NCBI GenBank assembly: GCA_024220525.1
Contig: JAMYWO010000099.1
Span: 1 to 59,304 of the forward strand
DNA from: Cochliopodium minus
Taxonomy: Eukaryota; Discosea; Himatismenida; Cochliopodiidae
Direction of reading: 5' to 3'
DNA: 59,304 bases
This document shows, one piece after another, positions 4,595-52,200 of the stretch. The translations under genes were made by a program, and so were the position numbers. Below the pieces are notes generated by a model. The model worked only from the letters and a program-made list of their open reading frames with translations, was not told the DNA's origin and made no database searches. The stretch's first letter is position 1, and each line of letters begins with the position of its first letter.

Positions 4595-4798
4595 TTTTTT
4601 TTTCCCCATCTTTTTTTTCAATTTAAAAAAAAAAAGTTTTTTTTGTTTTACTTTAATTTATTTATTTTTATAATTTTAAATAAAAAACTTTTTGTTTCAA
4701 AAAACTTTTTTCAAAAAAGTTAATATATATTTATTTTTTAAAAATCTCTCATTTTTCAAAAAGTATATGTCGAAAATTGATCTCCAAAAGTCAAAAGG

Positions 4799-17119: not shown

Positions 17120-20077
17120 TTATTCTTCTTCGATGTATTTCCAAATTTGAGGAGGAAGAAGTTCTTTGACATGCTCCAAATATGGGATGTTAAAAGAATT
17201 TTGTGTTTCTTCCAATACGGTATGGTTGCTATCTGTCAAAATATAAACATCTTTTTCTTTGATAGGTTTTGTTTCCCTAATAAAAATAATTTATAATTAA
17301 AAAAAAATTTTAAAAAAAGAAAATTTTTTTTTTTGTAACCATTTCTGCATATTAACCCAGATGTATTCAACAGTTCCTTCTTTTATGTTTCCCTTCTTTT
17401 CTTCTTCTCTAACATATTTTGGCAAACTGAAATCTATAGCAAAATCAGCAGCAAAGAAAATGACGTTTCTTAGTTGTCTCCTTTCTTCGTCATTTGTTTC
17501 AGGAATGCTCCTTAACAAATCCAAATTTATTGTTGTTATTTTTTAATTTTTAATCAATTTTTTTTTTTTTTTTTACTTGACGAATGGAAATACGGATTGG
17601 ATAGTATTGTAAACTAATTGGTAAGGTTTTGAAAACAGACCAACGGTGTTTCCCTTTTCAAAATTGGAAAATAAATAATAAATGAAATAAAAGTGAAATA
17701 AAAATAATGTTAATGAAAATAAAAATAAATGAAAATAAAAATAGTTAATAAAAAAACCAAAATATTCAAAATAAATAAAAATAAAAAATAAATGAAATAA
17801 AAATGAAATAAAAATAATGTTAATGAAAATAAAATAAAAAATAAAAAAAAAAATATAAAATAGAAATAAATATGAAATAAAACAAAAAAAAAATTTTTTA
17901 AAAAAAAATAAAAAAAAAATATAATCAAAAAAAAATAAGAAATAATTTAAAAAAAAAAATAAAAAAATAAAAAATGAATAAAAAATAAAAATATAAAAAA
18001 AAAATAAAAAAAATTTTACAACAAAATTCAGAGCAAACAAACCAGTTTCACTCAACAAATTTTTGCAAAGCTTGATAGTTTCTTGAGTCAAAGCATGGCT
18101 AGAAGTGGTCTGAAAGCTAAAGATGTCGTGGATGATGTAGTCGTACTTTCTTCCATGCTGGTTTTTGACGAGAAAGCTTCGCACATCCTCTGTGAAGAGC
18201 CTGCAGTTTTTTTGTTGTAAGTATGCGTCCATTCCAAACGTTCTTTTTGCTACATTGACTACTGCTGGTGATATTTCTACCACATCCACTATTTTTTATA
18301 ATTAAGAAATTAAAATGGAAAATTTTGAAATTAATAATAAAAAAAATAAAAAATAAAAAATCAAAAATCAAAAAATAAAAAATCAAAAAATATAAAAAAT
18401 AAAACAAAAAAATGAAAAATAAAAAAATAAAAAATAAAAAATAAAAAAATAAAAAATAATAAATAAAAAATTAAAAAATAAAAAAATTGAGTAATAAAAA
18501 TGAAAAAAAAACAAAATTTGGAAATAAATAAATATAAATGAAAAAAATGATAAAAAGAAAAAAATATAAATAAATAAAACAAAAAAAAAATAAAAAAATA
18601 AAAAAATAAAAAATGAAAAAATGAAAAAAGATAAAAAGAAAAAAATTTTAAAAAAATACAAAAAAATGAAAAATTTGAAAATAAATAAATAAATAAAATG
18701 GAATTATAATTAAATAAAAATTAAAAATTAGAATCATTAAAAATAAAACAAAAAAATTAAAATAAAAATAAAAAAATAAAAAAATAAAAAAATAAACAAA
18801 TAAACAAATAAAAAATGATAAAACAAAAAAAAAAAAAAGTTAAAAAATTAATAAAATGATGATTTATTTTACCTTGCGTTGTTGAAGGGAGATCGAGTAA
18901 TTTCACTATTTAAAATATAAAAAAAGTGAAAAAATAGATCAAAAAAAAAATCTACCAATAGAACCCATTCCAAGTCCTCTGATGTTTCAATGATAAAAAA
19001 AAAAAAATTTTAGATTATTCATTTAAAATTATTTTTTATTTAATTTTTATTTCATTTTTTTTTTTATTTTTTATTTTTTATTTTTTATTTTTTACACCAT
19101 TTTTTTTATTTTTTTTTTACATAATCAAAACTCTTTGGGGATCAGTTTTTCTTATGAAATAGAGTGATTGCAAAATTCTGAGGTAAGCGAAAATAGGAGA
19201 ATGATGGATTTTCCCTTCTGAATCCGGAGCCATTTTCCATTCTCCTCCAATCACAGATTTACCTTGCACCATCAACCTCCATCCCTAATGATAATTTGTT
19301 TAAATAAACAAAAAAATTGATTTAAAATAAAAAAGAAATAATTTAATAAAATTAATTGCAAGTTATCTCGAAAGGGAGATTTCTAAACTTTTTTTTTTTT
19401 TATTAACTTTATCGAGTAAAAAGTATAACCAAGAATTGCAACAAAAAATTAAAACTAAAAAAAGAAAATTTCTTTCTTGTTAAGATATGTTTATCAAGTG
19501 AACAATCATTTAAATGAATAATAAAGATATTGTGATATAAGTTTTAGATTGATCCAGATTTTGAATTATGATCTGATATAAAGAGATGAAGAAAATTTTA
19601 TAAAAAAATTTCATATTCTAAAAGCAAATATTATCTTCTCAATTGATTAGATCAAGGATATTTGATCATATAAATTTATATTTGATAAATTTTCATGGTA
19701 AATTTCATAACGAATATAATTTGTTTGGAAATAGATAGTTTTACTCTTTCATTATCATCCAATGCTATCACTTTGCCATATTTATCAGCCTCCATATCCA
19801 ATATCTCCCATTTCTCTCCCTTTGGATATTCCTTCTTAGGTTGATGAGCAGATGCCCCCTTTTTATTGTTGATAACAGAGCTATGATCATGATGTGGTGT
19901 ATTGAATAATTTGTTTCTTTTAGTATTTGGACTAACAAGCATTATGAACATCACCATGATGACCACAACAAGGATAATGATGATAAAGGTCTTAATATCA
20001 ATCCCCTTTCTTTTCTCTTTCTTTTCTATTTCAATGGTATTAGGGACAGTACTTTTATTGTGCTTATTCCTCTTCAT
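17120..20077 (-). CDS. membrane-anchored spermidine-synthase-like (class I methyltransferase fold) protein (408 aa)
   Basis: Eight exons: 20077-19745, 19284-19121, 18978-18956 (23 nt), 18905-18873 (33 nt), 18288-18020, 17653-17577, 17510-17340, 17276-17120; 409 codons with stop. A Lys-rich N-terminus precedes one hydrophobic helix (FIIIILVVVIMVMFIMLV, about 31-48), giving a type II membrane topology. The SAM/dcSAM-binding core runs RVLIIGLGMGSIVKLLDLP then VDVVEISPAVVNVAKRTFG. The catalytic-region motif is YDYIIHDIFS, not the DSSDP of true spermidine synthases, so aminopropyl transfer is doubtful and methyltransfer or another activity is more likely. The GLGMGS loop is spread over tiny exons. 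The large introns hold the A-rich repeats listed below. Confidence 0.85.
17672..18840. repeat. A-rich simple and duplicated intronic sequence
   Basis: The two largest introns of the spermidine-synthase-like gene are A/T simple sequence. A segment of roughly 50 bp containing AATAATGTTAATGAAAATAA occurs twice (about 17675-17730 and 17790-17840), an internal duplication. From about 18330 to 18830 the sequence is mostly short AAAAAAT-type units. Frames here encode only Phe/Ile/Tyr/Leu strings and are not genes. Confidence 0.75.
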
Positions 20078-20363: not shown

Positions 20364-21650
20364 TTAATTGATTGGAACAAATTTCCATTGGAGATAATTG
20401 TCGTTGGTTGGATCACGATAGGTGATGAGAGGTTGAGTCATGTTTGGATTTCTACCATCAAGATAACCTTGTGAACTTCTGCTTTGAATTGCAAAGTATC
20501 CATCTTTGAGAGGGATGAGTTTCCATTGGAGATAATTATCGTTGGTAGGATTACGATAGGTGATGAGGAGTTCAGTCATGTTAGGGTTTCTACCATCGAG
20601 ATATCCTTGTGAACTTCTGCTTTGAATTGCATAATATCCTCCTTCTTCGGCGATGAATTGCCAGTTCAAGTAGTTGTCTCCTTGAGGGTTTCTGTTGGTG
20701 AGGAGTGGTTCAGTCATGTTTGGGTTTCTTCCATCAAGATATGCTTGTCCACTTCTGCTTTGGATTGCGTAAAACTTTCCAGGAACAACAGGGGAATCGA
20801 CATTGACAAAGTTCCATTGGAGATAATTGTCGTTGGTTGGATCACGATAGGTGATGAGTGGTTGGCTCATCCCTGGATTTCTACCATCGAGATATCCTCC
20901 GCTGCTTCTGCTTTGGATCGCATAATATCCTCCTCCCACTGAAATCAATTTCCATTGGAGATAATTGTCGTTGGTTGGATCACGATAGGTGATTAGGAGT
21001 TCAGTCATGTTTGGATTTCTACCATCAAGATAACCTTGTGAACTTCTGCTTTGAATTGCATAATATCCTCCTTGCAATGGAATGAATTTCCAGTTCAAAT
21101 AGTTATCTCCTTGTGGTGGTCTGTTGGTGAGGAGTGGTTCGGTCATATTTGGATTTCTTCCATCAAGATATGCTTGTCCACTTCTGCTTTGAATAGCATA
21201 GAAGGTTCCAGGTGTCACAATTTCCAATTCATTCAATTGCCATTGGAGATAATTGTCGTTGGTTGGATCACGATAAGTGATGAGTGGTTGACTCATCCCT
21301 GGATTTCTCCCATCAAGATATCCTCCGCTGCTTCTGCTTTGGATTGCATAATATCCTCCTCCCACTGAAATCAATTTCCATTGGAGATAATTGTCGTTGG
21401 TTGGATTACGATAGGTGATAAGGAGTTCGCTCATATTTGGATTTCTCCCATCAAGATATCCTTGTGAACTTCTGCTTTGAATTGCATAATATCCTCCTTG
21501 CAATGGAATGAATTTCCAGTTCAAGTAGTTATCTCCTTCTGGTGGTCTGTTGGTGAGGAGTGGTTCGGTCATGTTTGGATTTCTTCCATCAAGATATGCT
21601 TGTCCACTTCTGCTTTGGATTGCGTAGAATTTTGCTGTATTAATGCTCAT
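20364..21650 (-). CDS. nine-repeat beta-trefoil (ricin-B-like) lectin-type protein (428 aa)
   Basis: Intronless frame of 428 residues made of nine near-identical repeats of about 46 residues, each with YAIQSRS-x3-YLDGRNP-x-M...L-x-T-x-R-x-P...DNYL-x-W. Repeats follow an ABC-ABC-ABC order: A units carry SGQAYLDG and end NYLNW, B carry SSQGYLDG, C carry SSGGYLDG (the ninth reverts to SSQG). Short linkers (ELEIVTPG, VDSPVVPG) separate the triplets. Three repeats build one beta-trefoil, so three trefoils in tandem are expected. QxW/YLDGR motifs fit ricin-B-like carbohydrate-binding trefoils. No signal peptide is present, so it is probably cytosolic or released by another route. High repeat identity implies recent expansion or conversion. 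Confidence 0.85.
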   Translation of the reverse strand: MSINTAKFYAIQSRSGQAYLDGRNPNMTEPLLTNRPPEGDNYLNWKFIPLQGGYYAIQSRSSQGYLDGRNPNMSELLITYRNPTNDNYLQWKLISVGGGYYAIQSRSSGGYLDGRNPGMSQPLITYRDPTNDNYLQWQLNELEIVTPGTFYAIQSRSGQAYLDGRNPNMTEPLLTNRPPQGDNYLNWKFIPLQGGYYAIQSRSSQGYLDGRNPNMTELLITYRDPTNDNYLQWKLISVGGGYYAIQSRSSGGYLDGRNPGMSQPLITYRDPTNDNYLQWNFVNVDSPVVPGKFYAIQSRSGQAYLDGRNPNMTEPLLTNRNPQGDNYLNWQFIAEEGGYYAIQSRSSQGYLDGRNPNMTELLITYRNPTNDNYLQWKLIPLKDGYFAIQSRSSQGYLDGRNPNMTQPLITYRDPTNDNYLQWKFVPIN

Positions 21651-26026: not shown

Positions 26027-29000
26027 ATGAATACATCATCTCATATAGAACAAGAAACACTTGGATTTGATTTGGTATTTAAGAAAATTTCTACATTTTT
26101 TTTCATTTTTTCTAATATTTTTATTTGAATTGAAATTTTATGTTTGAAAGAGAAATTCATTGAGAGATTATATTGTAAATGGAAAATTAAAGCTGAAAGA
26201 CAATAAATACACTTTCATAGCGAAGGAAGCTTTTAATTTCATAAAGAACAAATATTTTTTATCCTCCAACGATTCAAAATTGATATGCCAAAAATATATG
26301 GATAAGGGATGGATTAAATCAGGAAAGGAATTGAAATTCAAGGATAATTCAGCAATATATAAATTGGTAATTTAGAAAATTAAAAGTGAACACCCGAATA
26401 TTCACAATATTAACGAATTATGAAATGATATTCATTTTTATAAACTAATTCACAACATATACTCCTATATTAACAAATAATCAACAAGATAATGATTTAA
26501 ATTTTTAATATTAGGGAAAGAAATTCATCAAATTGAATGGAATATCTTTTTTGTTGAAATATATTTACCAAGATAATGTTGAATTGCCAATATATTCATT
26601 ATTCAACAAAATGAAATCAAAAATAACCTCCTCCAACTATGATATATATACAAAGAGCAATTTCAAAAATTTTTTATCAGGAAGCGAAATTGTAGATTTT
26701 ATAGAAAAGGAATTGTCATCAACAAGAAGAGATTCGATAGAAATTGCATCCATTTTTTTGAACGAGTAAAAAAAAATTTAATTTATTAATTTTAAATTCA
26801 TTTTTGAATTTAATTTGTGAAAAAAAAGAAATCTAATAAATCATGTTCAGAATCAAAAAGAGTTTGAAGACAAAATAGATGTTTTCTATCACTTTACCAA
26901 ACAATACAACATAGAAGATTTCACAATCAAACAAGGAGGTTCGATCAACATGAAACGTGCAACAACAGAAAACTCTCCTGATGATTATTGCCTATATTTT
27001 TTCGATTCAAGAGATAGTAGAAACAAATCATGGCAAAACGCTATTAATCTTTGGAAGACTCTAAACCATCCTTGTCAAAATGGAATACGTTCATTCTTCA
27101 AATCTGGAAATGAGAGCGTTTTCGTTCAAGATAAATTTTCAACTCCTTTGTTGGATTTCTTCAAATTGTACATTGAAGCAAAGAAGGATGGGAAGTATCC
27201 CGAAGTGCTCAAAATTTTATTGAACGAGAAAAATGAGTATGTTTTTGATGAGAGATTTATCAAGAAAGTTGCTCATTCTTTGTTCTCATATTTATCATAC
27301 ATCCACAAAAAAGGTAAATAAAAAAAAGAAAAAACAAAATCCTTATTCTTATTTAAATTTATAAAAGGGATTGTTTTTGGAGGAACTTTGACATTGGAAA
27401 ATATTTGTGTTACGAGTAAAGTCGTTTTGATTGTTCCTTCTGAATTAATGACAAGATCCAAAGTGTTCTCCAAAATGATTTACTCTGCACCTGAAGTATT
27501 CAACGGAGTGTACGACTCTTCTTCTGATGTTTGGAACGCTGGCTTGCTATTGTACACTTTGTTCTATGGAAACTTTCCTCTCAATTTAAAGTCTGAAGAA
27601 GACATTAAAAACCAAATCATTTTGAAAAAGATAGAGTTCCCTGATGTTCATCCAATCACTCCCAATGCAAAAAAGTTTTTGCTTAAAATTCTCTTATTCA
27701 ATGATAGACCCACTGCGGAAAACTGTCTAAGTCACGAATGGTTCAAGAATGTGGAAGAAGTAGACAGCAAGAATTTCTACGAAGATGTCATCAAGAATTT
27801 CATCGTCACTTTTAATAAATTGAAAGAGACAAAATACGATAAAATTCTCAAACCTACTTACTCTGTTGTCTCCGATCCTCTTTTTGACAGAAAAGTGTTG
27901 GACAGTACCAACTCTACTACTCTTAGAATGTCTCAATATAAGAAGGAAGTAACTCCAACAAATGATAAAAAATTCAAGTTTTCTAGAGTAAGCTCTGTTA
28001 ACATCATCACTCAAGTATTCAACGTTTTGATTGTTGGTCCTCCAAAGTCTGGAAAATTGGATTTTGTTGAAAAGTTTATCAACCTTTCTTCAAAGTCTGT
28101 TGTCACCCCCGAAAAGATCTATCTCAACAGCTCCAAAATGCACATCTACTATTTTAAAACCGATATCGTCACCTTCAAGTTTATCATCTTGGATTCTTCT
28201 GTTGATCAGCTTCCTAAATCACAAGGAATCAAATCAGATTTGGAATCTAACAAAATTGTAGTCAAGAGATCCAACTCTGATAGCTCTATTTCTCGTTCAA
28301 CTTCTCCAGAGTCTTCAAGGAGAAGTTCTTCAGGCGAAATGGAATACAGGAAAACGTATTTGAGCTTCGGAGACTCTAAGCCTTTTTCATGGGAGGATAT
28401 AAACTGGATACACGAGTTTGCCGATTTGAATGCCATCATCTTCGTAACAAAGTGCGAGAATTTTACAAGCGATGTCAAAGCAGATCCTGTGACCATTACT
28501 TCTTTGGAGAATCTGATGAACTCTCCTTTTTTCACAAACAATAACTCTATTTTTGGAAATATACCTATTATTACTGTCGTGAATGGAAAAGATTCAAAGC
28601 CTTCGCTCCAAAAGCAAGCAATTATTACTCAAATTAAGAAACTCTTGCCCGAAAAACACATCTCCCTTGAACTTCGTTCTCAAGTTTGCTTTGTTTCCGA
28701 GTTTGACGAGGTTTCCATCAGAGAGATCCACAATGAAATTCTCCAGACAAACGCCTTCTTTTCTAAACATTCAAACGTCAGCGATTATTTCAAAAAGATG
28801 TCAGAAAGAAAGAACGATTCAATTATTCTTAGACACAACAGTTTGTTGAAATTCAACGACTTTTCTACCTCTAATCTAAATGGAGTGTTTTCTTCTCATT
28901 TAAAAACTTTGGAACTTGTAGGGGTAGAGAAATTGTTTGAAACAAAATCTCTTTCTGTTATCCTTTCTGAAATCAAAAATTCTCCTCTCAAAGATCTGAT

Positions 29001-32000
29001 GTTCTCCCATTCTGTGTTTCCAAGTGAATGTATTGATCAATTGTGCGAATATTTCGAAAATCCAGATTGTTCCATCACTTCATTAAAACTCATCCAGCTC
29101 CAATTATCAAGCGACAGTATATCTAAGATTATGGATTCTCTTATCAATAATAATACCTTGATTATCCTTGATTTATCCAGAAATCAAATGAATTCAAACT
29201 GCATCAAGAAGATTACCAATTTTGGCTATAAAACCAAAACCCTATCTCATATCCATCTTGCTGATTGTGGAATCACAAGGAATGATTTGAAATCTTTCGA
29301 AGATCTCTTCAAGTATTCCAATCAACTTTACACTCTGAATCTCAATGGAAATTCTCTTTCGAATGAATTTCTCGAGAGATTGATCAAAATAGCAGATGGA
29401 AACGAATCTTTACCACTTTGTAACTTTGTCTGCCATTCTTCTTTTCTACAACTGGAAGTCTTGGAAAAACTAAACATTTTGTTGGCCAGAAACAGGAAGA
29501 ACATTTCTAGATTGACACACGGAGAAAGTTTCTTCTCGAACGAAAATTCTAGAGAATCTGAAACAAAGTTTCTCATAAAACTTCTTCCTTCTTCTCCTTT
29601 CACCTTTTCTGTTCTACAGAAGATATTGGCAGGAAATAAGAAAGTGTTTAACATCACCGAAGTAGAGAAGATTTGTGAGGCAAACTTGAAGATGATCAAA
29701 GAAAACAAGTTGGCTTATGTAGATAATTTGATGGAGATCTTGAATTACAATGGTTCTCCTATTTCTTATTTTTTCGAAAATGGTATCCCAATGAAAGACT
29801 CTGATCTTTGCAAACTTGATCTTTCTTGGTTTGGTTTTTTCGACAAAAACTTGTCCGTTGTGAACTTTGATTTCAAAGACAATCTCTTCAAAAACTTGAA
29901 AGTAGTTTCTTTGAACCACAACAATCTTACTTTCATTCCTGAAGAAATCTTCTCTTTGACTTTTATTGAAGAACTTTACCTACAATCTAATAACATTGAG
30001 AAAATAGATGAGAACATCAAGCATTTGACCAATCTCCTCGTTTTGGATCTTAGATACAACAGCATTCAAAAAGTTCCAAAGTTTTTATGTAATCTTTCAA
30101 AGCTCAAATTTGTGTATCTCCAACACAACTTTATCAGCAAGATAAAGAAAGATTCTATTGCCAAGCTAAACTCTTTGGAAGTTCTCGCTCTTCACAACAA
30201 TCTCCTCTATAATTTGCCAAACGATATTTTTGAAAAACTTACAAATCTGAAAGAATTAACCCTTCTCAACAACTTGTTCCATCCAACTAAAGTAGATCTT
30301 CTTCAGTCTTGGCCAACTAAACAAAGATCTATCGATTTTTCTACCAATCAGCTAGAGTTTCTACCATTCGAGATTGGATTCTTCAAACATTTGGTTGTGT
30401 TGAATTTAAGAGAAAACAAACTTGAATCTATTCCTCCTCACATTTGCAACTTGACAAATCTAAAGTTTTTTGATTTGAGAAACAACGAGATTGCTTATCT
30501 TCCTCATCAAATTTGCCCTATCTTGGACAACATTCACGAGTTTTTCTTTTATGGAAATCCCATCATTGATCTTGTTAACTTCGACACTCCCATAGAACAA
30601 AACATACCAGCACAAAGAAGCCAAATCTCCCAATTAGTAGAACATCTCCAAAAATCAAAGAAAATAAAGTATAAAAGAAAGAAAATAACCATGTGCGTTT
30701 TGTACACTTCTGTCAATGACTTTAACTTCTTTGTTAACGATTTCTTGTGTGATGTTTCTTTGAAAAACAATGATGTTTCTTCTCCTGTTCTGAAAAGCAG
30801 CAGGGCATCCAACTCTAGCATCTTTGAAAACAGAATTTTGAAGAGCTTTTACTCTTCACAAGAGTTAAACCCTGTTGATAGTAAAGCTGCATACAATGAT
30901 CAAATTTTGTTGCATGAGATTTCCCAAAACAAAACAAAAATCAAAAAAGATAATTTTGATCCTTCACAAAGCAATGACAAATGGTTCTACCAAACCGAGA
31001 TTAACCAAAATGAAGGAAAATTAAAGGTAGATATCATCGGATTCAACAACATCTCCACATTATCTCACTACATGAACTTTTTATCTGAAGATTGTGATCA
31101 CATTTATACTATCATCTCCAACATCTACGGAAATGTATCTTATTTGAGCTCGGTCTTGCAAACAATCAGAACTTTCAACAAAAAACCTATCATCATCCTC
31201 GGAACAGAAAACTCTGAAGTAGATAAAAAACAAAGAAAAGAAGTTGAAAATTTGGCACTCAAAAAAATGGGGCAAATGTTTCACAACCTTTCTGGTGTTC
31301 TCTTTCTTTCAAGTGAAAACTCCAAACCATTTGCATCTCTCATAGAAAACGTTGCATCAAAGCTTCCAAAGCTGACATCTGATCAACTCCAACTTCAATA
31401 CATTTTGGAATCTGAATCAAAGTTGAGATACTTGCTTCCCATTGCCAATTACAGTGAATTCAAGCAAATCTTGTCTGAATGTCTCATCCAGGGCAATTAT
31501 TTGAATAGTTTGTCCTTCTCTCAAAACTATGGCTCCATCATTTACTTTGATGCTATCAATTACGGAAAGAACAAAATGATTCTTTTGGAACCCCAATTGA
31601 TCGTATCCATCCTCCTTTTAGCTTCGAAATCTTGTCATAAGAATAAAGGCATCTTCAATCTGACCAACTTTTACTCTGAAATCCTCATCAATCACAACAA
31701 TCTTTTCTTTTCTCCTCTTTGGTCCAACATGGTTGATTTGTTGCTCAAATCTGAATTCATCTTGGATTTTCCCGCAAATGATATCATTCTCCAACAATAC
31801 AAAAGAAATTTGAACCACAAAAAAGATTTTGATACATCACAAGAGAAATTCATTGTTCTGCCTTCCAATCTCCCCGAAACAAACGTGAATTGGGAATTGA
31901 TGAAAGATTTCTGGAAGACATTCGAAGAATTGGAGGTATCAAGTGATTTGAACAACTCCATCACTTCGCTCATCGTTCCTCAAACAACCAACTACGCATC

Positions 32001-33941
32001 TATCCACTTGCAATTTAATCTCCAAAACAAATCAAACGAAGTTTTGGGTGAAGAGGATTTTGATTCGAGCCAGTTCTCGGAAATAGAACAGTGGTACATC
32101 TTGCTCATTTTTTCTTTTCCTTTTCTGCATAGATTGTTCAAACAACTGTTGGAGTTGCCCGGTGTCAAAGCTCTTCGTATGTGGAAAAACCTTTTGATTG
32201 CCAAAATCGAGAACAAAGCAACTTTTTCTGTCGCCATTGAACTCAACGAAGACAACAAACACATTTTGAAGTTGTGTGTGAGAGGAAAAGACGCTCCCAT
32301 TCAATTCTTCATCATCAGCGACATCTTGGAGAACTACTTGACTTTGTTCGTTCAAAACAGATGTAAAGTTGCTCTCGTTTCAAAACTGATCCCCTTTTCA
32401 GAGTGTGGTGAAGAAGCTTCCCTTTTCAAAGCCAAAATGTTGGAGTCCGCTGTTTACGAAGGCATCAAGCTTGTTCAATGCACCTCTTGTTTGATGAAAT
32501 CCAAGAAACACATGATCCCTCCTTCCATGGTCAGCCCTGTTCTTTCTTTGAGATATTTTTCTCCTTTCAGATTGAATCCTAAAGATTTTCAAAACAAAGT
32601 GGAGTTGGCAAGAGGAAGTTGTGGTATTGTCTACAGAGGTCAAAAGAATCTATTCATCTTTTTCTTTTTCCCAATTAATTTTTTTCTTTTTTTTTTAATT
32701 TGATTAGGAACCTACAATGATAAACTTGTTGCTATCAAAGAATTGCATATCACTGATGGAGAAAGTGAGAAAGTTCACAATTTCGATTTGATCAGCAGAT
32801 TTCTATCGAGTTGGAGGTAAATTCTCCTTCCCATCTTTTTTATTTCATTTTTAATCTTTTCAAAATAAATTTTAAAAATTTTAATTCCTTTCTTTTTTTT
32901 TTTTTTTTAATTTAGGAGGGAAGTCCAAATCTTGTGTCTTTTGAAATACAAACCAAACATCATAGATCTCATTGGGTTTACCCTCACACCACACTCCATC
33001 GTCCTAGAATACGCAGAGTTTGGAGATCTCTTCAACTATTTGCAATCAAATCACTGCAAAGATCTCAACGTTCAAACAAAATGTAGAATAGCAGCTGACA
33101 TCGCTTCTTCTATTGAAGTGCTACATTCTTTTGAACCAAAGATTGTTCACAGAGACGTCAAGAGTTTGAACGTTTTGATCACCAACTTGGATCCTCTTGT
33201 CATCAAGCTCACTGACTTTGAGACCGCTTGTTTTCTGCCCGACACTACCACAGGAAAAGGTTTGGTTGACAATCCTATATGGATGGCTCCTGAATTCATC
33301 TTAGGACAAAGGTACCTATTCAAATTTAAATTTTTCTTTTTCAATTTTTAAAACTTTTTTTCATGAGGTACAATGAAAAGATAGATATCTACAGTTTTGG
33401 AATTGTTATGTGGGAGATTTTCACTAAAAGAACTCCTTATGAAAACACCAAGCTTTTTAATTATCAACTCACTGAGAAAATCATTGTTGACGGATTGCGC
33501 CCCGAAATCATCGAGAGCGACATGTGGGATCAAGATTATCTCTCCTTGATGAAAAGATGTTGGTCCAAACTTCCCACCGAAAGACCCTCTGCTCAAGAAG
33601 CAAAAAACATCCTCAAAAAGTTGAGTTTAGGAGAAAAAATAGTCGAAGAAGTCAACGTTGTCAGGAACCTTTTCAGTGATACTTTTATTTCTTCGCCGAT
33701 TAATCCTAGAAACGATACTGTCAAAGATAAAGTATATCACAAGTCTCCTGTTAAGAAAAGTGAGGGTATTGTTGATATTTCTTTGCAGACTGTCAACCCT
33801 AAGATGTTTTCTCCTACTATCACTAGGAGTAGAAGGTCTGTCATCCCTCCTAGGGTCAATGTGGAACTTCTCGACAAAAAAAAAAGCACTGAACTGCTTT
33901 CTTTTTTAAATGAGAAAAAGAGTTCCAATGAGGAAAACTAG
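26027..33941 (+). CDS. ROCO-type kinase A: DEP-DEP-pseudokinase-G-alpha-like-LRR-Roc(inactive)-COR-TKL kinase (2449 aa)
   Basis: Exons 26027-26074, 26151-26366, 26515-26765, 26829-27313, 27368-32638, 32708-32816, 32916-33311, 33368-33941. Domains: two DEP-like (17-195); kinase-like region (about 200-480) with no HRD or DFG, keeping APE and DVWNAG; G-alpha-like domain (about 550-800) with P-loop GPPKSGKL (557-564; Ser/Thr replaced by Leu), Ser-rich insert, WIHEFADLNAIIFV, and NGKD (739-742) for NKxD; RI-type then classical LRRs (845-1400); Roc-like (1440-1668) without P-loop; COR; TKL kinase (2073-2360) with VAIK, HRDVKSLN, DFE and APE. C-tail is Ser/Pro-rich. Likely a membrane-associated signalling kinase; the N-terminal kinase and Roc look catalytically dead. 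Tandem paralogue of the gene at 41063. Confidence 0.85.
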
Positions 33942-41062: not shown

Positions 41063-44000
41063 ATGGATAATAATGATCAAGAAAAGATATTCAATCAACA
41101 TGATACTCTTGGATTTGATTTAGTATTGAATTAATAAATTATTTTATTTTACATAAATAATAATATGCCGTTTAATTTTATTCCAGCAAAATTGCTTCAA
41201 GAATTTAATTATATTCCAGAAAGCGAAAAAGAAAGATTCGAAATATTTTATGGTGGCCAAGGATATCATCAATCATTTGAAAGAGAAATATCAAATATCA
41301 TCACAAGAATCATCAAATATATTACAAAAATTCATAGAGAAGAGATGGATTGAGACTTCCGATAAAAAGTTAAAGGACAATTCGATATATAGATTGGTAT
41401 AACATTTTCCATATTCAATATAATTCCAAAATTATAAAGAGGTGTTCATTTGAACATTTATTTATATTTTATATACCCCATAGACGGATAGATCCTTGTT
41501 AATAAATGGAGTATCCTTTCTGCTGAAATTTTTTAGCACAGTCGAAGATTCAATAATAAATATATTGGCTCCACTCATAAATAAAATAATGTATCGTCAA
41601 GGAGAAGATACCTACACAGGATCAATATATAAAAAATGTGTTTCGGGGAAACAGATAATAGATTTTTTTGAGAAGAAATATTCAATCTCCAGAGAGGAAT
41701 CATATGAAATAGCAAATATATTGTTCTGCGAGTAAATTTGAAACAAATTTCAAATTAATATATTTTTCACCCCTTATAAATTTTAGTAATTTCATCTGCC
41801 ATGTCAGTTTTGCGACCTACATTGAAGATAATGATGAATCATTTTACTTTTTTACATCATCACTAATGATAGATAAATTCTCCATCACAGGGATCATAAC
41901 AGATCACGAGATGAAAGGCACACTGAAAAGGGCATCGATGACGGATAACAACAGAGAAGTACAGTTGTATTATTTGGAAAATAAAGAAAGCAAAGTGTGG
42001 TTAAATATGTTACCGCTTTGGAAATCTCTCTACCATCCTTATTACAATGGAATTCACAACTTCTTAAAAGTAGGAAATAATTATGTGTTTGTGAAAGACA
42101 AATTTTGTGTAACATTGCCTCAGGTGATGAAGCTTTTCAACTCTTCCAAATTAAAAAAGTCCTTCACGGATCCCATTTTAGAAATTTTTAAGGTGGGCGA
42201 TGGCAGCTCTAACCAGTGGGAGAATTATGTGTACACTGAAGATTTTGTCAAAAAAGTAGCTAAAACTATATTTTCTTTTTTAACTTATTTACACAAACAA
42301 GGTAACAAAATAATAAATAAAATTGAATTAATTCAGAATTTTATTATAAAAGGCGTTGTTTTTGGAACAATGACATTGGAAAACATTGTGTTTTGTTCTG
42401 GAAAGCAGAGTATTTATGTCACCCCATCCCTGAACATGACAAGAAACGATGTAAAATCCAATATTGTATATAGTGCACCCGAAACTTTCAGCGGAAAATT
42501 CTCGAGTTACTCCGATGTTTGGAATGCTGGTTTGTTGTTGTACTTGTTGTTGTTTGGAAAGTATCCTTTTGCAACAGATACAGAGGAGATATTGAAAGAA
42601 GAAATAACTCACAAAAAAGTTTCTTTTCCACAAAACTCTTCTGTCTCTCAAAACGCAAAAAATTTTATTACGAGTTTGTTGGCTTTTAATGATAGACCAA
42701 GCGCTACTTCTTGTTTGGATAATGAATGGATCAAAGAGAATTCCAGCTTGGTTGAGCTCACTGATAACAAGGAGAATGTTTACCCAAAAGTTTATATTGC
42801 TTCTTCTAAACTGAAATACCTTTTTGAAGAAAAATTCATCAAATCTAGCTATTCTATGTTAACAGATCCTTTGTTTGAAAAGCAGAACATATCCAAGAAT
42901 GCCTTTGACAATTTGAGCCAACTCAAAAACTCCAACCCCAATCTTAATCTTACTTCTCCTTTCTTCAAATTTTTGGTGATTGGATCTTCAAAGAGTGGGA
43001 AGACAACATTGGTCGAAAAATTGATAAATTACATTTCCAGAAATCCAATGCCTAAAGTAAAAACAATATTTATAAGTGGGAGAAAAGTTAAAAAATATAA
43101 TTTTGTGACTGAAACAACAAGCTATGAATGTATTATTGTAGATTACCCACATGAACCTTGCTTCAAACTGAAAACAAAGACTGAAGGGGAAGGATCCAAG
43201 ACTAGAGAAGTTCCCACCACAAGATCTAGATCTAAATCTGATGTCCAAAAGAGCAGAGTGATAAAGGAAGATTCGTTCATGTCTCCGAAGGAGAAAAGGC
43301 AAGTTTCACCTCTTTTTCCAGATTTGGTTCCTAATACATATGATCCCAAAAAGTTTTTTGTGAATGATTTGGATTGGTTGCCTGATTTGGCTGACCTAAA
43401 TGGTATTTTATACATTACTGATTGTTGTACCTTCGACAATGAAAATCAGGTGGATGCTGCTACTTTGTCATCCTATGAAAAATTCATCAAATCACCTTTC
43501 ATCAGTGATGGCTCTTCCATTTTCGGGAACACTCCTATCACGGTTGTCATCAACAAAGTTGATAAAAAACCAAATCTAACAAAAAACACCATCACTGGCC
43601 ATTTCTTAAAATACACTTACGGAATTTCCTCGGATCTCCGTTCTCAAGTGATCTTTGTCTCGTCTATAATAGAGGAATCGATTAAATCTGTTTTTAGTTC
43701 AATAATGAATATGGATTCTCTTTATCAAAAGAACTGTGACATGAAAGATACCTTGAAAGCAAATATAAGAGAAAAAAAAGAATCAGTGATCTTGAAGAAT
43801 CATTTTGGATTAAAATTTAATGAATCAACATTCAACAACCTTTGCCAATATTTCTCTTCATATACAGTGAACAGACTGGAAATAATTGGGATCAAGCCAA
43901 TATTCCAAATAAAGTTGATGACACAATTATTGTCAGAACTAAAGAATACTCAATTGCAACATTTGTTGTTATCTGGATGTACTTTTCCTGTAGATTGTGT

Positions 44001-47000
44001 TGAAGTTCTCTGTGAACTCATCGAAAGTCCGATTTCTTACCTTCAATCGCTCAAATTGATCAAACTAGATTTAAGTCCAGATACTGTTTATAAACTCCTT
44101 CTTTCTATTTCTTCCAACAAAAAAATTTGTTGTCTCGACTTTTCTGGCAATAATTTGAATTCCGAGTGTATAAAAAAGCTTTCTGAAGTGGTTATATCTA
44201 ATGAAAACTTGTCTCATATTTATATTTCAAACTGTAGCATAAACGAGCAAGATTTGGAGCCATTAGCTAATCAATTATTCAAGTACAGCTATGGCTTGAA
44301 TACACTGGACATTTCAGGGAATACCACTTCTAACTTTTTCCTCGAAAAGTTAATTCAAATTGCCGAGGTGAACAAGTCACTCCCTCTTTGTAATTTTTTT
44401 TGCACGACATTCCTTGATCCACTTCTTTTGATCGAGAGAATCAAACAGCTCATTTCTAGGAACAGAACGAACATCACCAGACATTCCATTGCAGATTCCT
44501 TTTTCAGAAGCAAAAGAGACAATTTGGCAAGTTATCACAATATGGTCACTTTGCTTCCTAATAACCCTCTTACAAAAAAAGTATTTATCAGCATGAGTGA
44601 CTTTTATCGAAAGACGAACAACATAAAGAAAACATCTTTGAGAACTCCTATTCAAAAGAAATCTACTAACGACAGTCCTTACATAGAGAGAAATTATGAT
44701 AGCGAATTTGAAAACTTGGATTTTTCATTTTTTAATGTTATTGATGAAGATGTTCCAAGAATAATCTATGATACACAATTAGTCATTGATAAACTGAAGA
44801 TTTTGGACTTCACCAGAAACAAATTGAGAGAATTTCCTCCAATCTTTGGCTTAAAAAACCTCGAAGCATTGTATCTTAGCTCAAATTATATTGAATCAAT
44901 ACCAGAAGAAATCAAGAGTCTTGAAGCGCTGGTTATTTTAGATTTGAGCAAAAACAGAATCTCCAAGTTTTCAAAAAACCTCACTTTTCTTAAACATCTT
45001 AAATATTTGTTTCTTCATAAGAACAATATCAGATACATCAAGCTTGGCATCATCCCCAAACTCGAAAAACTTCAAATGCTAACTCTCCACAACAATTCCC
45101 TCTATGATCTTCCCATTGATTTCTTTGATAAAAAGTTTGGAGAGGTTACCATTTCGAACAATATATTCCATTCAACTAAAAACTACATCTTCGAAAGTTG
45201 GTCGAACAACGAAACTTTTCTCTCCATTTCCAATCTTTCTATTGAATATCTTCCTTTCGAAATTGGATTTCTCACTAATCTCGTACAACTTGATCTCAGT
45301 AACAACAAACTAAAGTTTCTTCCTCCCCACATTTCTAATCTCAGAAAACTGAAAAAACTTGATCTAAGAAACAACGAGCTGATCGAGTTGACACCTCAAA
45401 TCACCTTTTTGTTTCCATTTTTGGAAGAGCTTTATTTGCACGGAAACGCTTCTCTGAAACTCCCAAGAGATTTCGAATTATTCGCAGACAAGCCATTGCA
45501 GATACATCAAATCTCCATTCTTGTGGATTTTCTCGATAAAATAGATAATGATCAACATCAAAGGAAGAAGATTACCATTACTGTATTAATAAACGATGAG
45601 AATGACTTTAGTTATTTCATCAATGATTTTCTTCAGAGAGGATTGTACAAAACAAATGAAATTTCTGTCATCAAGAAAAACTCATCAATCAACTTGGTGA
45701 TGTCAAGAAATACCATACCAATCATTGGAGAAAGAAGGGTTATCAAGTCTTTGCCAAAGAATGAAAAGAGTATCGCTGAGCTTTTCGTGAGCAAAGAGCT
45801 TATCAGAATTCAAAAGGAGAAAGAAAAAGATGATCTTTTGTTGGATAAATGGTATTATCAACTCGAGATAAGTGAGAACGATACAAAATTCAAAATAGAT
45901 TTCATAGGGATCGAAAATGAATCGTTGTTTTCTTCTTTTTCAACTCTATGTACCGAAAACTCTGATCAGATATTCGTTGTCATATCCAACATTTACGGGA
46001 ACATCAGTGATGTTACTTCCAAGATCCAAACCATAAGAAGCCACAGCAAAAAACCTGTGATCGTTCTGGGAAAAGAGATCAACTCCAAAGACATCAAACA
46101 AAGAAAAGAAATCGAAAACCTTGCTACCTCCAAGTTTGGATCCATCTTCAACAACATTCTTGGTGTATATTTTATGTCTCCCGAAAACTCTAAACCCTTC
46201 ATCAGTGCTGTTTTCAGTATTGCCACAAAACTTCCAAGGTTGTCTTATCAATTCATCGAAATGGAGTATCTCATCGAAGCAGAGTCAAAATTTAGGAATT
46301 TCCTTCCCCTCATGAGACAAGCGGAGTTCGCCAAAATGGCTTGTTATGGAAAAAACAATAACATTGATTCCGTTCTTGATCTTCTTCACAACTCTGGGGA
46401 TCTCATCCATTTTGATAAAATTAATTATGGGGAGAATAATTACATTTTTTTACAACCTTATTTATTAGCCTCTTTGATGAGACAAGCTTTCCATACTTCC
46501 AAAAAAGATGGGATCCTCAATGTTTCAAACTATTACTCTGATCTCCAACTCAACTTCAAACATCATCATCTTTCCAATGCGTGGGTAGATCCATTGTTAG
46601 AATTGTTCATACAAACCGAAATCACCATCTCATTAGATAAAAATGTGTATCTCTCAAATCAATTCAAATCTTTGCAAGATTACAATGAAAAAGGATCGTT
46701 GTTTCTCGTTCTCTCCAATTTTCCCACCTTTCAATTTGATTGGGATGTAATGAAAGATTTTTGGCAATCATTTGATATCTTGGATCCCACCCAAGAGCTT
46801 TGTCAGTCAAGGAACATCCATCTATCTCTCAAAGATGATGTCGTTAAAGTTGATGTCTTACCCAACCAACATGAAAGATGGTATCAGCTCTTGATACACT
46901 CACATCCATTTATAAATAAACTGTTCATGCAATTACTAAGACTACCAAATGTTCAACCCATTAGAATTTGGTATTAATAAGACATAAAATAATATTCAAA

Positions 47001-49134
47001 TTTAAGATTCAATTAATTTCTTTAATGAAGGAAAAATCATATCATTTGTAGAATAGAAAGGAGCACCACATTTGCATTGGGAATCTTTAAAGAATCCAAC
47101 GATGAAGAAGAAGAAACATATCTGAAATTCCGCATTACTGGAGCTCTTTCATCGAAATTCTTTTTCATCATCAACGACATCATCCTCACCTACATCAAAA
47201 TCTGCATCCAAAACAGATCCAAAATCACACTGTACAGTCAACACATCCCATTTTATGATTGCAAGAACTTTTTCTTGTTCAAAAACAAAGTTATCGAATC
47301 TTCTTTGTTTGAAGGGAAAACTAAGCTCCCTTGCCCTTCTTGCTCTAAAGATAAGAACAAATACATCCCTATTTCTTTGTTAGTACCTGATATCACTCTC
47401 TCGCATTACAACCATCTCCAATTGGATCCTCAGCAATTCGGCTCCAAGAAGGAGATTGGTGCTGGGAGCGGTGGGATCATCTATCAGTCCTTGTTCAATC
47501 CCGATATCTTGCTCAACAAATCACCTCAAATTAATGTTGCCATTAAAGAATTGAGTATTGTAGATGACAAAGAAATTGTAAATAATTTTGAATCAACATC
47601 TAATCTCATATCAGGATGGAGGTAAAGAAATAATTATTTTGGTTAAATTTAATAATCCTGATACACAATTTTATTGATCTATGTTGATTAATATTGATCC
47701 TATTATTTTTAACAATTTTCAAAACATCTAAACGAGAATCATATTAATTTTATTAAATTAATTTTATTAGGAGGGAAGTTTCTTTGCTCTGTTTGTTGAA
47801 AGGAAACGAAAACATAGTGAACATCATAGGTTTTACCCTTTTCCCTCACTCCATCACATTGGAATTCGCAGAGTTTGGAGACTTATCCTACTTCCTCGCC
47901 AACCACCAAGACAAATATACCGAGAAAGACAAATTTTTGATAGGTGCCAACATTGCTTCTGCTTTGAATGTCCTTCACACTTACCAACCTAAAATTATTC
48001 ACAGGGATATCAAAAGTCTCAACATTTTGGTTTCCAGTGTCAACCCTGTTTCTGTAAAATTGAGTGATTTTGAAACTTCTTGTTTCGTTCCACTTTATGC
48101 TTCTGGGATGTCTCCAATAGACAATCCAAAGTGGGTACCCAAAGTTTTTTTTTATAGTTTATTTTTTTTTCAATACATATTCGATTTATTAAATAGATGT
48201 CTCCAGAATTGATCATTGGTTCAAAGTAAATATTTTTACATTAAATTTATTGAAATTTTTGATAATTTTGTTTTTAAATAAAAAGATATAATGAGAAAGT
48301 AGATATTTATTCATTTGGGATCGTTTTATGGGAAATAGAAAATAAAAAACTACCTTTTGAAGAGAACAAAATGTTCAACTTTCAACTTTCTAGGGAAATC
48401 ATCTTCAATGATTTGCGCCCAACCATCCAAAACGAAGAAAAGTGGAATCCCCACTATTTGGCTGTTGTCAAACAATGTTGGTCCAAACTACCTTATCTCC
48501 GTCCTACTGCCCTCGAACTAGCTAATTATTTAACTACATTATACAAAGGAGAAACATTCGACTTGAATCTATTAAACCAAAAAAGATCTGTAAATTTTAA
48601 TTTTTTGTTAATTTTTTTATTAATTTTTTATTAATTTTTTTATTAATTTTTTATTAATTTTTTATTAATTTAAACACTAATTTCATTTCCATAAAGACTC
48701 CTTCCCACAGAAAGTTGATAGAAAAGAAACAAAAAACGCACAAAGTCAAGAAAATGAAAAAGAACGGTTCTGTTAACATCATACCTTCTTCTAGACTGAG
48801 CGACAAGATCGAGATTGTAGAGTTAGATAAGATCAAAACGGAGCTCAGTTCCACTCCAACAATCGAAGACAGTCAAAAGATCGACATTTCATCCGATCAA
48901 ATCCCAAAATTAAATGAAGTTTCTTCAACCAATTCAGAAGATGATTTGGATACTGATGAGATTGATGTCACTTCTTATTATGAAGACAACAACGACAGCA
49001 AGTTTTCTTTCAGCATCCAGTTGAACGAGGATTCTGTAGATAATCAGACTGACGAGGAGAGTGGGAATCATATTGAGTTTCACAATCATCAGGGCATCAA
49101 TGAAAAGACTATTGCGGAGTTGTTAGATCTATGA
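41063..49134 (+). CDS. ROCO-type kinase B, tandem paralogue of A (2458 aa)
   Basis: Exons 41063-41122, 41187-41396, 41484-41731, 41787-42301, 42353-46970, 47031-47621, 47771-48134, 48196-48224 (29 nt), 48286-48589, 48697-49134. Same order as A: two DEP-like domains, degenerate kinase (no HRD/DFG, SAPETF kept), G-alpha-like domain with intact P-loop GSSKSGKT (555-562), WLPDLADLNGILYI and NKVD (745-748), RI and classical LRRs (about 840-1395), Roc-like domain without P-loop but with KDIKQRKE aligned to LRRK2's THxD region, COR, and TKL kinase with GAGSGG, VAIK, HRDIKSLN, DFE and SPE. The acidic C-tail (about 140 residues) differs from A. Intron 4 is 51 nt without stops, so retention keeps frame. 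The exon at 47031 is set by IW|KNHIICRIERSTTF matching A. Confidence 0.85.
48600..48672. repeat. TTATTAATTTTT tandem array, intronic
   Basis: The last intron of ROCO-type gene B carries about five imperfect copies of a 12-14 bp unit containing TTATTAATTTTTT. Confidence 0.7.
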
Positions 49135-49289: not shown

Positions 49290-52200
49290 ATGAAAGTTGT
49301 TAAGAAAAAATCAAATCTCAAATGGAGGCTTTATTCCACGAGTATCCCTCAAATCAAATTTCATGTAAATGGAAAGACTGTCATTGCCAAAGATATCAAT
49401 CCAAAAGCAACTCTCATCGAATTTTTAAGAGATCAAAGGATCTCTCTTGGAACCAAGCTGTACCCATCCTTTTCATCTAAACTATAAAATAATTATATAT
49501 TCAAATAAAAGGGGATGTTCTGGAGGGGTATATATCATGTGAAATATGATCTTTGAATTTTGAAAAATCATTAAAATTTTATTAAGGGATGTGGTGCATG
49601 TACTGTAATTGATATTTCAAAATTATCTTCTAGATTAATGTATTTACAAATCATTTTGTTTATTAGGTTGCAATAAAGAGGATAAATTCCAATGGTGAAA
49701 TATCAGAAAAGGCTTTGAATAGTTGTTTGATTCCATTAGCATCAATGGATGAGGATATTCATGTGACAACAGTAGAGGGTATTAAATTTAAATATTTTAT
49801 TTGACGGATTTTCAAATATTATTACAATGTAATAATATATAGGGTTCGGAGATTGCGAGAATCCAAATGCAGTACAAGAAAGGTTCAACATAAATCACGC
49901 ATCTCAATGTGGTTACTGTACTCCTGGGTAAAATAGAAATTTTAATTTGCATTTTATTATACGATCATATATATTCTTTTGAATGTACTTCAAAATATAA
50001 AGTCAAATCTATTTATGTGATGATATTGATTAAAGTTTAATATCTTTCTTATAATTACATATGTTATTTATAAGCTATTTTTTCGAGATCTATTTATAAC
50101 TGATCTATTGAGTATTTTGCAATAACAGAATGTCAGATTTCGGAAATTGAATATCTGGAAGATTCAAAAGAGTTTGATTCACAATATCTTTATATATATA
50201 AAAAAAATAACTGGGATCTCAAGAACTTAACGATCTTGTTAGAAAAAGAATACATTATGTTTTAATTACGATGCAATTCTTGGTTTATTGAATAATTAAA
50301 TAACAAATTTATTTCAATTGTTACAGATTTATTGTTACTCTATCCACCTTTTTGCAAAACAACCCAAACCCTACCACAGAACAGCTGAACACTTGCCTGG
50401 ATAACTACTGCAGATGCACGGGTTACAGGCCTATCATGGACGTTGCACATTCTTTCACAAGTGAGGTCAGTAAGTTTAAAGAGTTGGATTACAACAAGCA
50501 AGAGACAAAACAAAGAATAGCAGAAACCTTAAATGAAAAGGATGTCTATATTTCAAATTCTTTCGATAAAATCTCTCCCAACTTGAAAAAATTTGAAAGC
50601 AAAAATTATGAGCAGCCTAAGAAAATCTACGATAGAAAAGAAAGTTTGACTTTTGAAAAAGACAATGTCAGTTGGGTGAGACCTGCTTCTTTGGAACAAA
50701 TTACACAATCAAGAGCACTTTATCCTAATGCCATGATTTACTAGTAAAAAAATTTTTTTTCATATAATTAACTTTACCAATTTTTACTTAGTGGCACCAC
50801 TGACTTCATGACTAGGAGAAGAAAGCATTCCAAATTCATTGATGTGACTAGAATAAAAGAAATGCAGAACCTTTTCTTTATTGATACGAACCAAACATCT
50901 AGCAAGATCAAAGAGAAGTTTTCCAGCTTTGAAGGAGAAAAGATACTGAATTTGGGAGCTGCTGTCTGCTTTTCGGATTTGCAATCTTTCTTCAAGAAGG
51001 AAAGAGAAAACTCAAAAGATAGACAATCGATCCACATCTTTACTGTTCTCATAGAATCCCTTCAAAAGTTTTTTACTAACCAAGTTAGAAACGGAAGTTC
51101 TTTGGGAGGAAATTGGATGAGATCAGATTTGACTCCTTTGCTGCTTGCTTTGGACGCTAAAGTTTTAGTTGTGCCCCATGATAGTACTGATGGGAAATTG
51201 GTTTTGAGGTCCATTAGTTCTTTGATTGGTTTGAACTCTAAAGATAGAGACTTGGTTGTGAGTATCATCCTCTCTTGGTCTTCTAATGACTTCAAATTTG
51301 TTTATGCTACAAAAAACGGGCCATCTAAAGATCGACTCGTTTCTTTTGGTTCTCAAATCTCCCTTTCCAAACAAGAAAATGACTATATTATCAATAATGC
51401 AAGAATTTTCGTTGGACTCTCAATGAATAAACCTTTCTCCATTGACTGTAGTTTAGCGTCAGAGTTTCTAAGAGGGAAGGTTTTCAACGAAACTAACATT
51501 AAGGAAGCAGTTCAAATATTAGTGAACAAAAGCTTGCCTCAGACTCCTAGTGATACAACTAGAGGAGGGGCGATGGAGTTCAGACGATCTTTCGCGGGAT
51601 CCAGTCTCTATCGTTTTTTCATGAAAATTAATATTGAATTGGGATTGAATACAAACAGTGATGGAAATTCTACAGAGGATACTTTTTCGATGGAATCAAG
51701 ACCTATTTTTGGAGGGCTTCAATCGTTTCAAGTACTCGAAAAAGGAGAGTTACAAAGCAATTTCCCCACTCTCCATCACCAACTCCCTCCTGAAAAGTCC
51801 AGATACCCTGTAGGATATCCTATTCCTCATCTCCAAGGCAAAAAACACGTAACAGGAGAAGCAGAATATGTAGATGACATTCCCACTCCCCAAGGTTGTT
51901 TGTACTCTGCGAATGTTCTCAGCGACATCCCTCATGGTATCATTGAAACCATAGATATTTCCGAAGCTCTTAAATTAGAAGGAGTGGAAGGATATTTTGA
52001 CAGCTCGGACTTAGAAAAGCTAGACCCTCGATTCAAGCCAGTGGATGATGACAAAGAAAAAGTTTTCGCAAAAGGAAAAGTCCGATGTGTTAACGAGATC
52101 ATTGGTATCGTCGTTGCAACTTCGCAAGAACTCGCTAATTCCGCTGCCAAATTGATCAAGATTAAATACACTCCTTTGCCTTCTATTGTCAGCATTGAAG

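Follow-up and report, generated by a model that had tools for sequence, protein, structure and literature searches.

A predicted G-alpha-like pseudo-GTPase ahead of the leucine-rich repeats in a family of LRRK2-like kinases with a degenerate Roc from Cochliopodium minus

Contig JAMYWO010000099.1 of the Cochliopodium minus assembly GCA_024220525.1 was analysed over positions 1 to 59,304, hereafter the window. It contains gene 1 (26027-33941, forward strand), a member of a gene family encoding giant relatives of LRRK2, the Parkinson's disease kinase. The predicted protein carries, in order, two DEP domains, a CAMK-type pseudokinase, a G domain, leucine-rich repeats (LRRs), a degenerate Roc, a COR domain and a kinase. 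We favour, with moderate confidence, the explanation that ROCO-derived, LRRK2-like kinases have expanded in this lineage into a subfamily in which Roc is dead and a predicted pseudo-GTPase, nearest to G-alpha, precedes the LRRs as part of an N-terminal regulatory switch. The anatomy of the gene family is well supported, and the kinship of its G domain to G-alpha is likely.

The window is AT-rich eukaryotic DNA with introns. Gene 1 consists of eight exons on the forward strand (26027-26074, 26151-26366, 26515-26765, 26829-27313, 27368-32638, 32708-32816, 32916-33311 and 33368-33941). Removal of the seven GT-AG introns gives an uninterrupted reading of 2449 residues that spans exactly 26027-33941, and alternative acceptors shift its length by no more than 3 residues. 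Exon 5 (27368-32638) runs from the C lobe of the first kinase through the G domain, the LRRs and Roc-COR into the beginning of the last kinase. Because the LRRs and Roc-COR lie in this same open exon, the reading frame rules out a separate gene for the G domain. The G domain and the LRRs also lie in a common frame in all seven paralogue frames scanned with Pfam.

The first DEP domain (26184-26363, +) matches PF00610 within exon 2 at E = 0.0018, below the cut-off when taken alone, and the second (26653-26895, +; residues 135-194) is interrupted by an intron. The spliced N terminus matches PF00610 in two stretches with an E-value of 2.2e-14. The CAMK-type pseudokinase (26911-27750, +), spliced across the intron at 27314-27367, matches PF00069 at 2.8e-16. 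Its nearest structures in the PDB are CDPK/CaMK kinases (best E = 1.2e-25), and STK17, a relative of DAPK, is among the matches; the DAPK kinase is likewise of the CAMK type, and that of DAPK1 is active. In the gene 1 pseudokinase the HRD and DFG aspartates are both missing (alignment A7). The DFG-position Asp is absent from all seven paralogue rows that reach the site, and the HRD Asp from six of seven, L010 being the row that keeps it. The LRRs (28900-30620, +) match LRR_8 (2.3e-17), LRR_14 (1.9e-14) and LRR_4 (5.4e-14); Pfam support begins at about 29890, and the earlier repeats were recognised by eye. The C-terminal kinase (32590-33608, +; spliced), presumably of the TKL type, matches PF00069 at 3.9e-42 and PF07714 at 1.7e-41 and keeps the VAIK, HRD and DFE aspartate positions. 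By eye, the residues of an active kinase (VAIK Lys, HRD Asp and DFG-position Asp) are found in both window genes, the two of the ten copies that were examined. These results bear out a preceding sequence-only reading of the same DNA, which had named the DEP domains, a degenerate N-terminal kinase, LRRs and a C-terminal kinase as parts of a single chain.

That reading had also claimed a Roc-COR module. The pseudo-Roc (30670-31275, +) and the COR domain (31276-32550, +; borders approximate) were characterised through A4, a Roc-COR profile built from eight of the ten paralogous genes. In a search of the PDB with A4, LRRK2 ranked first (E = 3.1e-6), matching profile positions 149-405, which start late in Roc and continue through COR; the Roc of LRRK2 aligned with the profile only from the later strands onward. 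The mitochondrial calcium uniporter also appeared in the match list at 5e-4, which we judged to be chance. Pfam COR-A was found in five of seven scanned paralogue frames, at E-values of 5.7e-5 to 1.2e-3 that all miss the cut-off, and was listed neither for gene 1 nor for L010. The COR domain after the Roc position is thus present, with LRRs before Roc-COR and a kinase after it, as in ROCO group 2. No GxxxxGK[ST] P-loop stands at strand 1 of the Roc position in any of the eight aligned A4 rows, and we therefore use the names ROCO-derived and pseudo-Roc. Position and COR of the claimed module are accordingly upheld; the missing P-loop of its Roc had gone unnoticed. Since the Roc itself is a pseudo-Roc without a P-loop, no canonical G site remains intact in gene 1.

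Other ROCO genes of this genome were used for comparison. GxxxxGK[ST] was found on the COR-A strand in 11 of 30 COR-A loci, each taken with about 1.5 kb of flank and including one member of the gene 1 family. One complete Roc with a P-loop, L080, matches the LRRK2 Roc at 2.7e-15, and as a control G-alpha was absent from the best 60 of the 275 rows matched by it. Roc P-loops persist in other ROCO genes of this genome, so the loss of the site seems to be characteristic of the subfamily.

The 44.65-Mb assembly (598 contigs) was searched for related genes. The gene 1 G domain as query found ten loci, two of them within the window, and the gene 1 Roc-COR found the same ten and no others, with contig C6 counted as one gene. 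Locus L012 as query recovered nine of the ten, missing the one on C147. On C6, the two pieces (L013 and L070) are found out of sequence next to what looks like a break in the assembly, and a stretch of about 26 residues adjoining an N occurs in both. An eleventh gene at 64 kb of C6 was ruled out, since the assembly seems to have divided a single gene into these two pieces. Gene 1 is one of ten loci and not a one-off; a second copy lies 15 kb downstream of it in the window. This tandem paralogue, gene 2 (41157-48634, +), shows the same domain order, with a G-alpha-like domain at 42952-43743 (+; P-loop GSSKSGKT, NKVD) and a pseudo-Roc without a P-loop at 45556-46149 (+). Its G-domain P-loop is better kept than that of gene 1. 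The G domains of the paralogues share 25-36% identity with that of gene 1 and have the W, C, GNIPIT and NKxD-type blocks in common; retention of these blocks at such low identity speaks for selection acting on the domain. In a search for prokaryotic relatives with L012 as the sole query, 72 stretches fitted a pattern and none was confirmed.

The G domain of gene 1 occupies 28009-28782 (+; residues 548-805). The blocks quoted in the sequence-only reading were located in it: the P-loop GPPKSGK, here GPPKSGKL (28036-28059, +; residue 557 onward), the strand TFKFIILD (residue 602), the W block WIHEFADLNAIIFV (from 28405, +; residue 680), NGKD (28582-28593, +) within VVNGKD (residue 737), and the last block SQVCFVSEFDEVSIREIHNEI. 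A variable insert of about 60 residues precedes the W block in gene 1. Across the ten copies, the GK of the P-loop is kept in nine, followed by the Mg-ligand Ser/Thr only in gene 2; the strand-3 Asp is kept in eight, the DxxG Gly in none, and a strict NKxD in seven, gene 1 having NGKD. In the alignment the switch I Thr was not recognisable by eye in the copies. G-alpha proteins are defined by an all-helical domain between the P-loop and switch I. In gene 1 the P-loop Lys and the strand-3 Asp are 46 residues apart, a spacing too short for such a domain, which is therefore absent; the whole G-domain segment of L014 measures 206 residues. The long insert that follows NKxD in G-alpha is also missing from the alignment, and an insert is found before strand 5 instead. 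Between strand 4 and helix 3 the loop exceeds that of Arf and Ras by about 4 residues, and the G-alpha loop is longer still. Judged by its residues, the domain is not a G-alpha by membership, as it lacks the helical domain and the DxxG Gly and retains the Mg-binding Ser/Thr in one of ten copies. This pattern of motif loss fits the pseudo-GTPase class, and the domain is best read as a predicted pseudo-GTPase derived from G-alpha. With GKL and NGKD, gene 1 is likelier than gene 2 to have lost nucleotide binding.

The kinship of the domain was assessed by several routes. With Pfam, G-alpha (PF00503) was the sole family listed for the gene 1 domain at E ≤ 10 (E = 0.0015), its 18.2 bits lying below the curated cut-off of 48.8; most weak matches were dropped by the HMMER filters. 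When A1, the alignment of all ten copies, was searched against the PDB, G-alpha came first at 1.9e-5, and the first other row was a Rab-related GTPase (0.0011) matching the P-loop half. A2, which omits gene 1 and the most divergent copy (L016), still placed G-alpha first at 4.5e-5, with Sar1 at 0.04 and septins from 0.0022 in the P-loop half. A5, covering the discriminating half from the W block to the end and likewise omitting gene 1 and L016, gave G-alpha at 0.0032 and Sar1 at 0.04, with Roco chains near 0.5 and some rows that look like chance, in agreement with the claim that the domain is nearer to G-alpha than to Roc. The same half of gene 1 alone (phmmer against the PDB) returned G-alpha in 34 of 35 rows, many of them near-copies, with a best E-value of 0.0058. 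L012 alone matched G-alpha-13 at 0.03, followed by bacterial GTPases via the P-loop. Against families of the same genome, gene 1 scored highest with G-alpha (19.4 bits), followed by Arf (8.0) and Ras (1.2).

Trees of the discriminating half point the same way. With 26 rows, the domain and G-alpha were split from Arf/Sar and Ras with support of 95/91; with 24 rows, the domain was joined with G-alpha of the same genome at 95/95. In a column-shuffle control, a profile of the nine paralogues without gene 1 was shuffled 100 times and scored against the family rows of the same genome. The unshuffled profile reached a best score of 10.0 and a mean of 7.1 for G-alpha (attained by 3 and 0 of the 100 shuffles, respectively), 15.7 and 5.35 for Arf/Sar (0 and 1), and 3.7 and 2.8 for Ras (19 and 3). 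The resemblance to G-alpha exceeds chance, though modestly. G-alpha and Arf are grouped together on one side of the Ras-like GTPases; it is on this side, nearest to G-alpha, that the domain most likely belongs.

Several results weigh against G-alpha as the nearest kin. No Pfam G-alpha score reaches the cut-off, and in a scan of the ten single domains G-alpha was listed for only four copies, as were Arf (4/10) and, on the P-loop side, Roc (4/10), again below their cut-offs; none of the three was listed for L009, L010, L013 or L016. The best Pfam family for gene 2 is GTP_EFTU (5.5e-6, at the cut-off). The significant G-alpha alignment mostly covers strand 4 to helix 3, and the last block of the proposed block-by-block match (against G5) lies outside the significant local alignments. 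All of this evidence comes from the sequences of one genome, and long branches are in play in the trees. What remains of the proposed G-alpha likeness is the nearest kinship in PDB profiles and trees, with the helical domain and DxxG Gly absent and Sar1/Arf close behind.

The domain could instead be a degenerate Arf/Sar-type GTPase whose G-alpha likeness arose by convergence of the W block, an alternative that we consider somewhat unlikely. It draws on the same-genome hhalign comparison of the discriminating half, in which Arf scored 40.9 (probability 91.6) against 35.0 (75.7) for G-alpha and 31.9 (69.2, over 21 columns) for Ras, these alignments being small. Family profiles were evenly divided, five of the ten copies favouring G-alpha and five Arf (for L012, 8.0 against 14.2). 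Among single rows, L073, Sar1-like by eye, scored best with the domain profile (16.9 bits); without gene 1 it still led with 15.7 against 10.0 for the best G-alpha row. Sar1 is also next after G-alpha in the PDB for the discriminating half, and in the approximately unbiased (AU) test a grouping of the domain with Arf/Sar was not rejected (p = 0.072). A grouping with the Sar-like row alone was rejected (p = 0.019), however, and in Arf the loop between strand 4 and helix 3 is shorter by about 4 residues. G-alpha ranks first in the PDB whether or not the profile includes gene 1, and also when gene 1 or L012 is searched singly; both trees favour it.

Descent from a duplicated Roc or from another Ras/Rab domain is very improbable. 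The AU test did not reject the domain with Ras (p = 0.062), the A2 search matched the P-loop half to the Roco chain 4wnr (6.4e-4), and the Roc profile matches of four copies and the second-half Roco chains given above lean the same way, as does TIGR00231 small_GTP, found in five of seven copies (L012 at 9.6e-7, below the cut-off). The Ras profile nevertheless scored lowest of the three families in eight of the ten copies (not L014 and L016), and comparison of the G domain with the Roc position of its own chain gave an hhalign probability of 0.9%, with no sign of duplication. The P-loop-bearing Roc of L080 behaves quite differently, and despite the 4wnr match a duplicated Roc is unlikely by these two results. 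A further alternative concerns function. If unusual residues replaced the lost motifs, for example the Lys in place of the Mg-binding Ser/Thr, followed by Ser/Thr, in six of the ten copies, the domain might be a working GTP switch, as the GK of nine copies, the strict NKxD of seven and the GKT and NKVD of gene 2 would suggest. We find this quite unlikely given that the DxxG Gly is missing from all ten copies, that Ser/Thr directly follows GK in only one, and that a switch I Thr is not recognisable by eye.

Under the preferred reading of a G-alpha-nearest pseudo-GTPase in a ROCO-derived kinase, the chain comprises two kinase/G pairs: a dead kinase with a worn G domain at the N terminus, and a kinase with intact motifs and a dead Roc at the C terminus. 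The C-terminal kinase would provide the output, and COR with the dead Roc would form a dimer and hinge scaffold. The DEP domains may bring the N-terminal pair to membranes or partners, and this pair would take over the regulatory switch role of Roc. We infer that it gates the C-terminal kinase via the LRRs. The G domain itself would most likely be a pseudo-GTPase, serving either as a protein-docking module or as a holder of nucleotide without hydrolysis; copies with GxxxxGK and NKxD, such as gene 2, may hold guanine nucleotide unhydrolysed. In a bolder version, which we regard as unlikely, heterotrimeric G signalling was wired into an LRRK-type kinase: after the death of Roc, the switch would have moved to an N-terminal domain derived from G-alpha, paired with the pseudokinase as a mirror of Roc-COR and kinase and still meeting G-alpha partners.

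Other features were noted in the window and the genome. A single open reading frame (ORF) of 428 residues at 20367-21650 (-) contains eight ricin-type lectin stretches (PF14200, E = 3e-51). An ORF at 17576-18289 (-) resembles spermine/spermidine synthase (PF01564, E = 8.3e-7), and a gene piece at 50808-52304 (+) resembles xanthine dehydrogenase/aldehyde oxidase. Two overlapping frames of about 455 residues on opposite strands (3215-4594, +; 3257-4621, -) had no Pfam match at E ≤ 0.01, and Rfam gave no match within the window at gathering thresholds. Genome-wide, the profiles matched 69 COR-A, 78 G-alpha, 129 Arf and 164 Ras segments, which are exon pieces rather than genes, one GTPase being able to match several profiles; they indicate a large signalling repertoire.

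To our knowledge, a G-alpha-like domain built into a kinase is a rare case. The earlier reading knew of no described protein uniting DEP, G-alpha-like, LRR, Roc-COR and kinase domains; in an open-access library none was found among the matches listed, judged by titles and starts of abstracts. The LRR-COR-kinase chassis of this family seems to do without a functional Roc and has a different G-type module ahead of it, so the family offers a natural experiment on why Roc is needed.

Among known systems, LRRK2 and the Dictyostelium Roco kinases (ROCO group 2) share the order of LRR, Roc position, COR and C-terminal kinase, and the Roc-COR part finds LRRK2 first in the PDB. Unlike them, the family has a Roc without a P-loop and an additional N-terminal CAMK pseudokinase and G-alpha-like domain. 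PMC6337361 lists DEP among ROCO group 2 members and describes COR as mediating dimerisation in Roco proteins, with switch II of Roc contacting COR. It also describes DAPK1 (ROCO group 3), in which a kinase precedes Roc-COR, as in gene 1, and which differs from the gene 1 family in having a death domain and no LRRs. Dual-domain kinases with an inactive N-terminal partner occur in Dictyostelium, as stated in a portion of PMC1420674. The likeness to G-alpha lies in the P-loop strand and in a block of strand 4 (W-(x)3-F-x-D-[LV]-x-[AG]-I), loop and helix 3; in contrast to G-alpha, the G domain of the family lacks the helical domain, the DxxG Gly and the insert after NKxD, carries the Mg-binding Ser/Thr in one of ten copies, and is embedded in a kinase. 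Sar1/Arf is a close second to G-alpha and first in one profile test. ARF domains do occur in fusions, and the section of PMC8358228 on multidomain ARF members includes no ROCO or kinase fusion. As in the pseudo-GTPases p190RhoGAP, Rnd and EhRabX3, taken from a section of PMC5593906 that gives p190RhoGAP and Rnd as examples of the class, a G fold with lost motifs is predicted within a signalling protein, although those three belong to different GTPase families and are without the LRR-COR-kinase arrangement of the gene 1 family.

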